This document shows, in pieces, positions 2,139-63,840 of a DNA stretch of 64,000 bases (positions are counted from its first letter, which is position 1; the number at the start of each line of letters is the position of its first letter). The notes under the pieces were generated by a model. It made no database searches. It saw only the letters and a program-made list of their open reading frames with translations, and was not told where the DNA came from. The translations under genes were made by a program, and so were the position numbers. The stretch comes from an uncultured Alphaproteobacteria bacterium (GTDB lineage: Bacteria > Pseudomonadota > Alphaproteobacteria > RF32 > CAG-239), in NCBI GenBank assembly GCA_944393175.1, contig CALXZH010000034.1, positions 1 through 64,000 of the forward strand, in the 5' to 3' direction.

Positions 2139-2717
2139 TTATCTTTTTAAGATAAGCGGCGCATAAAATTTCGAAAATCCTATCATATCCTTGAGCCAAA
2201 TTTCACTTTCATGAAGTTCAGCACAAACAGGCATGCCGGTTCTAGAAGAGCACCAAAATTTGTTGCCGTAAAGAGGCTCATCACCTGATTTTTTGCGCAA
2301 AGCTGAAATATCGCCCCAATTTGCTTTTAATAATAAAGCATCATCGGGCGCCAACAATCGGCCACCCAGACGTTTGATATACCTTTCTAAGCACGGCGGA
2401 TTGACATTATATTGCACGCGGCTATGGATTACTAAATCCGGAGCAATGCGATAACCGATAATGCGCCCGTTTTCAGGTAAATAATCCGGGCTTTCAACCA
2501 GATTTTCATAAACATAGCGCGGTACGGTATAGTCATCTACCGTACCCGGCAATTTACCGTCCCAAAGAGGTTCTCCTGCCGGACCGGTATAAACCCCTGC
2601 TTTACCAGATAACTCTTTGTTGGTACGGTTGCCATAATATATTGCTGAGATAAACGCAAACAAAAACAGGCATACGAAGACCCCGACCATGATAAAGATA
2701 ATAGTTTTTTCATCCAT
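2139..2717 (-). CDS. Unknown single-pass membrane protein behind the shared leader
   Basis: I do not recognise this 192-residue protein. It begins MDEKTIIFIMVG, has one transmembrane segment at about residues 5-27, and the rest is soluble, rich in charged residues with two late cysteines (WCSS and PVCAE). I place the start at the ATG at 2717 because the in-frame extension upstream (to 2774) lies in a 50-nt block duplicated in front of another gene at 61415, and no ribosome site precedes the longer start. A Shine-Dalgarno is not obvious for the short start either. The upstream block has a TTGACA box 62 bp before the shared segment. The gene sits between tRNA-Leu and a phage-like lysis patch, so it may be acquired. 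Confidence 0.6.
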   Translation of the reverse strand: MDEKTIIFIMVGVFVCLFLFAFISAIYYGNRTNKELSGKAGVYTGPAGEPLWDGKLPGTVDDYTVPRYVYENLVESPDYLPENGRIIGYRIAPDLVIHSRVQYNVNPPCLERYIKRLGGRLLAPDDALLLKANWGDISALRKKSGDEPLYGNKFWCSSRTGMPVCAELHESEIWLKDMIGFSKFYAPLILKR

Positions 2718-2762
2718 AATGATACCGGAATATTTTAAGAGGCTTATATGACCGGATCCTCT
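2713..2762 (-). repeat. Shared leader block, copy A
   Basis: On the minus strand this 50-nt segment, ending in ATGGA of the gene at 2717, matches 61370-61419 (plus strand) with a single mismatch. It contains AGAGG paired with CCTCT, and two CCGG elements. The block is upstream of two unrelated coding sequences, so it is probably a regulatory leader or a recently duplicated 5' region. Confidence 0.75.
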
Positions 2763-2794: not shown

Positions 2795-2824
2795 TAAGCT
2801 ATATGTATTCATATGCTATGTCAA
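2795..2824 (-). promoter_or_regulatory. Promoter-like region of shared leader, copy A
   Basis: Minus-strand TTGACA (2819-2824) is followed 13 bp later by CATATAGCTTA (2795-2805). The same two elements, 12 bp apart, precede copy B at 61310-61338. The -10 box is not clear (TATAGC or TAGCTT). Confidence 0.4.
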
Positions 2825-61309: not shown

Positions 61310-61338
61310 TTGACAAATTTTAAAAAGCATATAGCTTA
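61310..61338 (+). promoter_or_regulatory. Promoter-like region of shared leader, copy B
   Basis: TTGACA (61310-61315) and CATATAGCTTA (61328-61338) match, in order and nearly in spacing, the elements before copy A on the minus strand at 2795-2824. The -10 hexamer is imperfect. Confidence 0.45.
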
Positions 61339-61369: not shown

Positions 61370-61419
61370 AGAGGATCCGGTCATATAAGCCTCTTAAAAT
61401 ATTCCGGTATAATTATGGA
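61370..61419 (+). repeat. Shared leader block, copy B
   Basis: This 50-nt segment is identical, except for one base, to the reverse complement of 2713-2762. It ends in the ATGGA of the helical-repeat gene. The frame is open through it in both copies and would code RGSGHISLLKYSGIIM, and the one substitution is synonymous (ATC/ATA), but copy B has no start codon upstream that fits. Confidence 0.8.
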
Positions 61420-61939
61420 GTTTTTATCTTTAATCAAAAAAGGTGCTCATACAGCAATTGTTGAGTACGTTAAAAAATGCAAATGCTTAACGACTGAAGA
61501 AGAAATTGCTTTAATTCGACGGGGCAATCATATTGAAATTATGACTTACATTGCCGAGCATTATTTTGAGGTCGATGCCTTTTATGTGTTCCTCGAACGT
61601 GGAAATTTGAATGAAATTCGTTTCTATTTGTATACATCTCCGGTTATCTTTATGGATGTGGAAACATCTAAAAAGATTTTGAAACTTGGGCGCGGCATTA
61701 CAGATGCTTTTGTTGATTGCGTTATCAGGTATCAGGATGATGGTTTCTTTGAGACGGAAACTACTTTGTTAGATAACATCCAATGCCTTATAATGCAATG
61801 CGGAGATCATTGTGCAATTCGCCGGTATCTTTATCGTAAGCCCCTACAAAAAAAGGCTGCAAAGATGTTACAAATTCACGGTATCGCTGAAGATATTTTG
61901 GTATATAATCTGAGACAGATGCACGCTCGTGCTTGTTAA
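61415..61939 (+). CDS. Helical-repeat protein behind the shared leader
   Basis: The 174-residue product starts MEFLSLIKKG at 61415; a longer frame from TTG 61310 would pass through the promoter-like TTGACA and is rejected. The chain shows five similar segments of about 28-35 residues, each with L-[IL]-x-x-G followed by hydrophobic pairs (LIKKGAHTAIVEYV, LIRRGNHIEIMTYI, FLERGNLNEIRFYL, ILKLGRGITDAFVD, LIMQCGDHCAIRRYL). This suggests an ankyrin- or HEAT-like alpha-solenoid for binding. No family is known to me. A terminator follows. Confidence 0.65.
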   Translation: MEFLSLIKKGAHTAIVEYVKKCKCLTTEEEIALIRRGNHIEIMTYIAEHYFEVDAFYVFLERGNLNEIRFYLYTSPVIFMDVETSKKILKLGRGITDAFVDCVIRYQDDGFFETETTLLDNIQCLIMQCGDHCAIRRYLYRKPLQKKAAKMLQIHGIAEDILVYNLRQMHARAC

Positions 61940-61986: not shown

Positions 61987-62104
61987 TTGCTTTTAATATA
62001 ATTTTGATAATTCCCATTGAAAAACAACAAAATTTTGTTTACAGCATGGCTTTTCTGTGTTAAAATTTAGACATAATAGCGGAAATTCCAGGGGTGGGTG
62101 CACT

Positions 62105-62998
62105 ATGGATATTAAGAAAAAAATAAATGAGCTGAAAAAAAGAAGTGTTCAAATTGCAACACTGGCCGCTACTTTGTTCCCGGCTCAAAGCAGCCTGCCC
62201 GCGCCATACTCAAATTCCGGTATCAACAACGATAAAAAAGATACGGCTCATTCTATTTTAGCTACCCAGCCTTCGGCTGATATAATTAATGAAGATGTTA
62301 CGCTCAAAATCAGTGACTTAAAAGATTTACTTAGCAATAACCCTAATATTCAATTATCAGCTGACTTTTTAGGAGCTATAGAGCCCGGACCAAGCCAGAA
62401 AAAAATGCGCTCCATTTTGGAAAAAGGTTTTGATTTTACCATTCGAAACAGTCGAGGCGAAAGCAAAGATGCACGCTGCAGCCTAGACCAAGCGCCCAAA
62501 GGGTATTGCTATGGGGCGATTAAACGGCTGCTTAATAAAGTTTATAAAGAACCAATTTCGGGTAATCTTTCAGCTTATCAAGAAAAAGACAATTTATTAA
62601 AATCTTCTAATTTTATGGCAGTGCCTATTGAGTTAAAAGATGTTATTAATTGCCCGATTAACACGGTTGTGGTTATTCCTAAATGTAAAGGGCACAGACA
62701 CGGGCATATCTTTACAGTCGTTGATAAAGGCGTATATTGTTCTGACGGGAAAGAAGTTGCCGGAGATTATTTTGATAACAACTACAAAACAGCAAAAGGC
62801 ATTTATGCCTTTGTTCCCGTTGACGGCTCCATTAAGCTAACCCCTAAACTCTTGCAACAGTCGCCTGAATTATATGCTGCCGTTTTGAATCAAAAAACCG
62901 GTAAAGAAATTTTGCCAATAACCGACGGGAAAGGCGGGCAACCTGTATTATTGGCTGAACTATCTACCTCTCAAAAAAATTCCCCTCTTAGTCGATAA
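62105..62998 (+). CDS. Secreted CHAP/NlpC-like predicted peptidase, second paralogue
   Basis: I choose ATG 62105, preceded by AGGGGTGGG; a frame to 62057 is open but has no ribosome site. The 297-residue product begins with a basic start and hydrophobic stretch (VQIATLAATLFPAQSS), a likely signal peptide. The C-terminal half has GYCYGAIKRLLN (Cys135) and GHRHGHIFTVV (His199/His201), matching the Cys and HxHGHI region of the larger protein at 50938. The two are diverged paralogues, with possible peptidoglycan or peptide bond activity. The catalytic assignment is inference; no assay-like motif beyond Cys and His is seen. Confidence 0.65.
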   Translation: MDIKKKINELKKRSVQIATLAATLFPAQSSLPAPYSNSGINNDKKDTAHSILATQPSADIINEDVTLKISDLKDLLSNNPNIQLSADFLGAIEPGPSQKKMRSILEKGFDFTIRNSRGESKDARCSLDQAPKGYCYGAIKRLLNKVYKEPISGNLSAYQEKDNLLKSSNFMAVPIELKDVINCPINTVVVIPKCKGHRHGHIFTVVDKGVYCSDGKEVAGDYFDNNYKTAKGIYAFVPVDGSIKLTPKLLQQSPELYAAVLNQKTGKEILPITDGKGGQPVLLAELSTSQKNSPLSR

Positions 62999-63078: not shown

Positions 63079-63840
63079 ATGGAAAATTGGCAAAAAGCTC
63101 TTGATAAATTTTTAGAAAACTATATTCATCAAGACTGGTTTGAAGGAGCCCTTCTTTGCGGAAGTTATGCGTCGGGAAATCAAAATGAATTTTCCGACAT
63201 AGATGTTACAATTATTGCTTCCAATTCTCTCACTTGGCAGGAAAAATCAAACTGCTTTGTGGACGGCTTTTTGATGGAATATACTATCAATCCAATCTCT
63301 CGATTTGAAGAATATATGGAAGAATCGCTTAAAGAGCATGATTATACTAATCAATATCTGCTCTTATATGGCAAAATTTTATATGATACTCACGGAGAAA
63401 TTCAAAAACTCCGCGAAAAGGCCGCCTTGCAAGTAAAACAACCTTTTAAGCCCCTTTCCGACTACGAAAAAAATTTTATTAAATATTATCTCTGGGACAG
63501 GTATGATGAACTGTTGTCTTTAAGCAAAAAAAATTTGCATCTTGATTTGCAATATTGGAGCTTGGTTGATGCTCTTATTACGGCTTATTACAATTTTCAT
63601 AATTTGGCTCACGTGCCTCACAGCAAAATTGAACAAATTTTAACAAATCCCGAATTTGCCAAGCGTTATCATATTAAAGATATGCCGCCGAAAGAATTTA
63701 TACAAATGCTTATGAATTGTTTTGATGCGCAAAATAAAGAACAAAAACTAACCGCTGTTAAAAATTTCTATGATTTTGTGATGAATTCAGACGGCGGGTT
63801 TGATATTGGAAAATTTAGAGGTAAAAGAGATTTGAAATAA
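63079..63840 (+). CDS. Nucleotidyltransferase-domain protein
   Basis: The 253-residue protein has the minimal nucleotidyltransferase signature GSYASGNQNEFSDIDVTI (residues 28-45), G-S followed by D-x-D, at the N-terminus. The C-terminal part is helical like aminoglycoside adenylyltransferase-type or other NT_KNTase-like proteins. It may transfer a nucleotide to a small molecule or a protein partner; no HEPN partner is seen. AGGTAGAC is upstream of the ATG. Confidence 0.78.
   Translation: MENWQKALDKFLENYIHQDWFEGALLCGSYASGNQNEFSDIDVTIIASNSLTWQEKSNCFVDGFLMEYTINPISRFEEYMEESLKEHDYTNQYLLLYGKILYDTHGEIQKLREKAALQVKQPFKPLSDYEKNFIKYYLWDRYDELLSLSKKNLHLDLQYWSLVDALITAYYNFHNLAHVPHSKIEQILTNPEFAKRYHIKDMPPKEFIQMLMNCFDAQNKEQKLTAVKNFYDFVMNSDGGFDIGKFRGKRDLK

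Follow-up and report, generated by a model that had tools for sequence, protein, structure and literature searches.

The locus

The window, that is, the whole 64,000-nt stretch of DNA analysed here, carries near its two ends a 50-nt block, at 2713-2762 on the minus strand and at 61370-61419 on the plus strand. The first-pass annotation had described the two blocks as agreeing in 49 of 50 bases and as each running into the ATG of unrelated ORFs, with TTGACA 62 bp (copy 1) and 60 bp (copy 2) upstream, CATATAGCTTA common to both, and no Shine-Dalgarno at normal distance before either start; all these observations were confirmed. The features of the two copies are listed below, where P1 and P2 are the two helices of the predicted leader structure.

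Copy 1 and its gene
2713..2762, minus strand: pseudoknot leader, short form, with its 3' end at the start codon
2758..2762, minus strand: 5' strand of P1, AGAGG, partner 2738-2742
2738..2742, minus strand: 3' strand of P1, CCTCT
2752..2755, minus strand: 5' strand of P2 (pseudoknot), CCGG, within the P1 loop
2725..2728, minus strand: 3' strand of P2, CCGG, with the ATG 7 nt on, in the usual Shine-Dalgarno place
2139..2717, minus strand: gene for a 192-aa protein of the 'PRYVYENLVES' family, with a single TM helix at the N-terminus and no Pfam family
2819..2824, minus strand: TTGACA, likely -35 box of a putative promoter
2795-2803, minus strand: TATAGCTTA, putative -10 region

Copy 2 and its gene
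61370..61419, plus strand: pseudoknot leader, short form, with its 3' end at the start codon
61370..61374, plus strand: 5' strand of P1, AGAGG, partner 61390-61394
61390..61394, plus strand: 3' strand of P1, CCTCT
61377..61380, plus strand: 5' strand of P2, CCGG
61404..61407, plus strand: 3' strand of P2, CCGG, with the ATG 7 nt on
61415..61939, plus strand: gene for a 174-aa helical-repeat-like protein, no Pfam family
61310..61315, plus strand: TTGACA, likely -35 box of a putative promoter
61330-61338, plus strand: TATAGCTTA, putative -10 region

In both copies P2 is CCGG with CCGG, L2 is the short loop UCAUAUAAG, and the third hairpin found in other members of the family (P3) is absent. The possible pairing of AGAGG with CCTCT had been seen in the first reading and stands, but the second pairing, CCGG with CCGG, which is interleaved with it, had been overlooked. 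The suggestion of a shared unit made up of a complete promoter and the leader proved only partly right, because the -35 and -10 boxes are generic and the conserved unit is the block: outside it, the copies compared in register agree at 16/60 positions directly upstream, 56/140 further up and 25/100 downstream, which is the background level.

Adjoining copy 2 there is a 313-aa ORF (62057-62998, plus strand) with a GTG start and without a clear Shine-Dalgarno, and at 63079-63840 (plus strand) an ORF with a nucleotidyltransferase-like motif (LLCGSYASGNQNEFSDIDVTII).

Distribution of the leader

The search for the block in the window's own genome and in related genomes revealed a third copy in the former (G000:C3:117620-117660, one mismatch), the exact 37-nt core in five further genome records, and covariance-model matches with E-values down to 1e-17; the recurrence of the window block is far beyond chance. 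The model R1, made from the first 20 copies, detected the element in 40 of 152 genomes from the taxonomic family to which the window belongs, and this count was raised by a broader model (R2) and by a model of diverged copies (R3), the model-based tally of 93 genomes including some false matches. About 127 copies were inspected, which occur in at least 80/152 family genomes (counted by hand) and at least 12 genera, with 1-5 copies per genome and 3 in the genome of the window.

Among 385 genomes of the class no true copy was detected outside the family with either the DNA pattern or R3, and no copy was detected by R2 among 398 genomes of the phylum. The DNA-pattern hits outside the family in the class set were GC-rich and resembled chance matches, the reversed-pattern control giving fewer hits, while four weak R3 matches there were rejected on inspection, having neither stems nor gene. 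The weak hits L128, L202, L206, L207, L210, L211, L212 and L214 were likewise rejected by eye, as they lacked P1/P2 or were intragenic. IMG/VR virus contigs gave no match to the short-form pattern or to one long-form pattern, and phage records contained no relative of the window protein. The scan of the window with a free pseudoknot descriptor was not specific on its own.

Structure and constraint

Sequence comparison of the copies demonstrates that the leader folds as an H-type pseudoknot. The order of elements in the 111 anchored copies is P1a, L1 (1-3 nt), P2a, L2, P1b, L3, P2b, then 6-10 nt and ATG or GTG. P1 consists of GAG[G/U] paired to [C/U]CUC and of an outer pair that covaries. P2 is formed by NNGG with CCNN and joins the P1 loop to the 4 nt in front of the start-codon spacer. 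L3 is a conserved A-rich linker UAAAnAA, usually 8 nt. The 3' strand of P2 reads CCGG, CCTG, CCAG or CCCG, and 6-10 AT-rich nt separate it from the ATG; the distance from the end of P2 to ATG/GTG lies within 6-10 nt in 56/56 non-redundant copies.

In the long form (35 of the 56 non-redundant copies) L2 contains a third hairpin, P3, with variable stems (GUG/CAC, GUAU/AUAC, GCAU/AUGC, GCCAUUU/GAAUGGC) and with a loop region that is AAGGA-like (AGGA, AAGG, GGAG or GGGA) in 35/35 cases. In the short form the loop reads UCAnAnAAG, and these letters are kept in different genera and before unrelated genes, well beyond the needs of pairing. A further dozen copies, most of which represent a diverged sub-form, have P1 and the AAGGA loop but do not match the P2 anchors.

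The most-diverged sub-form (L191, L197, L199, L204, L205, L208, L213) is found only before small membrane proteins; it opens with a repeat, mostly GUUGUUUCAC, ahead of GAGG or GAAGGA, and a long run of A takes the place of a clear P2.

The pseudoknot helix was evaluated with P2 anchors set without regard to the partner strand. The second, variable pair of P2, adjoining GG/CC, is a standard one in all 111 anchored sequences (C-G 66, G-C 26, A-U 14, U-A 5), compared with 53.6 on average and 70 at most among 5000 shuffles. Since the sequences are related, the types of this pair were also tallied by downstream gene family, which gave CG, AU, UA and GC in 26, 7, 5 and 3 groups, with switches of type within 5 families, one of them a small set of unclustered genes. 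The 36 distinct stem sets are 94.8% paired and their covariation is 0.291 versus 0.089 after shuffling (reached in 0/500), while sliding of the partner reduces pairing to 41-58%. Covariation is seen as well in the outer pair of P1, which occurs as AU, UG, CG, GU, GC and UA; the GAG/CTC and GG/CC cores are invariant and hence neutral in this test. Nested folding of the 50 nt alone gives -5.3 kcal/mol with z of +1.3, no more stable than shuffles, by a program that cannot score a pseudoknot.

Constraint on the leader was estimated in 276 homologous gene pairs of the short form, where the 41-nt leader is on average 87% identical, the coding sequence 61% and the four-fold sites 44%. Because leader identity is far above that of coding and four-fold sites, strong selection on the leader as a nucleic acid is indicated.

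Genes behind the leader

The 124 downstream proteins fall into 42 unrelated clusters, many of them with transmembrane helices or signal peptides; for the most part they are small proteins, secreted or in the membrane, to which no function is assigned. In the Pfam scan of 14 downstream proteins the sole match above the curated cut-off was a PP-binding (acyl-carrier) domain. The largest cluster (29 members) is the 192-aa one-TM family that follows copy 1 in the window. For the main downstream protein AlphaFold gives a model of low confidence (pLDDT 63), and Foldseek returned no result. The close homologues of the one-TM protein in the taxonomic family possess the leader in 29/32 cases and lack it in 3 (L250-L252), and the more distant, fused homologues are without it; the leader is linked to the gene yet separable from it and is therefore a module. 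The relative of the copy 2 gene in another genome (L028 in G003) is likewise preceded by the leader.

Several observations concern single loci. L024 (G080:C5:39123-39576) has an intact short-form leader before a decayed one-TM gene, which is in two pieces, one with a stop. At L192 and L193 (G098:C60, G064:C23) and at L204 (G180:C68) adjacent genes each have their own leader, as if gene and leader had been duplicated together. In the 123-aa 'RSGWANDIREGW' family (L129, L135, L140, L142, L146, L177, L187) a word like TTTTGCTTAAnACA lies approximately 30-40 nt before the leader, perhaps marking a different promoter class.

Comparison with known systems

The Rfam scan of the window gave no relevant match at the gathering score, nor was any found at E up to 10 for the window block or at E up to 5 for 12 long-form loci. 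The covariance models of SAM-II (RF00521) and preQ1 (RF00522, RF01054, RF02680) matched neither the window, nor the block, nor the 12 long-form loci, and a literature search whose scope stopped short of subscription papers and preprints found no description of the leader. The family is absent from Rfam 15 and was previously uncatalogued. Compensatory base changes upstream of coding sequences, by which a cis-regulatory pseudoknot is recognised, are present in the leader; it would act like this class, and by the tests made it is not SAM-II or preQ1.

The preQ1-I and preQ1-II riboswitches have, as the leader does, a P1 of 4-5 bp, an A-rich loop crossing P1 and a pseudoknot beside the start codon, while the embedded hairpin of preQ1-II is positioned elsewhere than P3. 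The loops of the leader also differ from those of preQ1, and no queuosine genes are found behind it in the 42 downstream clusters, of which 14 proteins were Pfam-scanned. A related case is the repZ gene of IncI plasmids, where the formation of a pseudoknot near the start region activates translation, but this is a single plasmid gene under antisense control. In the ribosomal protein S4 leader translation is controlled by a pseudoknot in the start region. S4 and S15 each concern one autogenous gene, whereas the leader described here stands before many accessory genes, none of them for a ribosomal protein.

The S15 leader, which controls translation, resembles the present one in placing a pseudoknot over the mRNA start region (PMC4137082). 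SAM-II is similar as a short H-type pseudoknot at the ribosome site that controls translation in Alphaproteobacteria (PMC9373788). The leader differs from it in having no Shine-Dalgarno inside P2 or directly after the pseudoknot strand, in the P3 hairpin that its long forms insert in the P1 loop, and in genes unrelated to methionine. In the 5' UTR of tisB a standby-site pseudoknot was described in which changes of the left and right arms compensate (PMC7708055); it acts from a position about 100 nt ahead of a sequestered site, in contrast to the leader, which abuts the start codon and is common to 42 gene families.

Possible control of translation

According to the structure, position and distribution of the block, it is most probably a cis-acting pseudoknot leader that controls translation; a probability of about 0.8 is given to this reading, a figure that covers neither version of the mechanism discussed below. 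The earlier suggestion of a regulatory RNA leader of a small regulon is thereby strongly supported, with more copies before accessory genes in at least 12 genera and with covarying stems. Since the element keeps a fixed distance from the start codon, covers the whole site at which the ribosome lands, stands in for the Shine-Dalgarno and has no terminator after it, action on translation initiation is inferred. Among ordinary window genes 21/43 have an AAGGAG-like site at normal spacing, while the leader genes have CCGG-N7-ATG in its place and no copy has a Shine-Dalgarno at the usual distance; many AT-rich genes here lack a Shine-Dalgarno, and thus its absence is no proof of a special mechanism. 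A 16S gene was not found in the assembly of the window. The 5' UTR would measure roughly 80-100 nt, with the leader as the structured RNA that closes it on the 3' side, and the unit has been placed before many unrelated accessory genes; a promoter-like site precedes 79/118 copies at variable distance, with transcription starts guessed from the boxes alone.

The version judged most likely, at a little under even odds, is recruitment, in which the folded pseudoknot would help to load the 30S subunit. P2 would then stand where the SD:anti-SD helix normally forms, long forms would display a Shine-Dalgarno in the P3 loop, and short forms might be recognised by shape, e.g., via ribosomal protein S1. 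Recruitment is supported by the retention of the AAGGA-like loop in all 35 long forms, and it is weakened because the short form, to which both window copies belong, lacks a loop Shine-Dalgarno. As a precedent, the tisB pseudoknot of E. coli was proposed to load 30S/S1 (PMC7708055), and the use of a distant Shine-Dalgarno was reported for metA of S. meliloti, an alphaproteobacterium (PMC9373788).

In the second version, which is a serious candidate with a probability only slightly lower, the folded pseudoknot would keep initiation off until it is changed by a protein, a metabolite or an sRNA; as a riboswitch or protein operator, it would be stabilised by a small molecule or a dedicated RNA-binding protein, which would turn initiation off. 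The H-type pseudoknot is compact, has an A-rich third loop, lies right at the start codon and belongs to the architecture class of SAM-II, preQ1, S15 and S4, and the over-conserved loop of the short form is what a specific ligand or protein would be expected to impose. However, none of the riboswitch or leader families in Rfam gives a match, even with E values of up to 10 allowed, the strand that P2 would hide contains no Shine-Dalgarno, the regulated genes have no metabolic theme, and neither a regulator gene nor a ligand was identified.

A more specific form of ribosome recruitment is considered tentatively and is rather unlikely: a lineage-specific, gene-mobile ribosome-entry element, in which P2 would replace the SD/anti-SD helix at the proper spacing to the AUG and some versions would carry a hairpin-loop Shine-Dalgarno. 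If true, a class of accessory genes would have been switched to structure-dependent initiation, and with the ribosome as partner the leader would offer a direct test of bacterial initiation without a normally placed Shine-Dalgarno. With either mechanism, recruitment or blocking, scattered accessory envelope genes would share one translational control. For these uncultured, small-genome Alphaproteobacteria the leader provides a first candidate post-transcriptional regulon, and it marks a set of uncharacterised envelope genes that are probably co-expressed.

Alternative explanations

The possibility that the block acts at the DNA level, as an operator or recombination site, is contradicted by the covariation and very unlikely. 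The conserved palindromic words GGATCC and CCGG and the modular unit moved among genes would fit such an element, but the covariation of P1, P2 and P3 is interleaved and strand-specific, orientation and start-codon spacing are fixed, and a DNA site would not account for the occurrence of all four pair types with pairing in 111/111 cases.

The AGGA/AAGG-like letters that are always present in the P3 loop of long forms recall a CsrA/RsmA-type binding site with GGA in hairpin loops. This explanation is largely contradicted and highly improbable, as CsrA (PF02599) was found in 0/10 element-carrying genomes in which controls were detected, and the short forms are without a GGA loop.

Recent duplication of the promoter/leader segment within the genome, a possibility raised in the first reading, is suggested by the 49/50 identity and by the similar promoter words of the window copies. 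As the sole explanation it is contradicted and has a very small probability: orthologous copies from other genera are equally similar although their genes differ at approximately 56% of four-fold sites, so that the block is kept while downstream synonymous sites are near saturation (about 87% versus 44% identity), and the flanks of the window copies are unrelated. Older shuffling of the leader unit between genes is likely.

Finally, a translated N-terminal tag, a second possibility of the first reading, or a shared signal peptide would fit the open frame of both window copies and their single difference, which is indeed synonymous (ATC/ATA, Ile). This explanation is refuted and practically negligible, because the extension is impossible in 45/55 short and 55/63 long copies (in 100/118 the frame of the gene has a stop within the element or meets a stop ahead of any start codon) and the length from element to ATG varies through all three phases.
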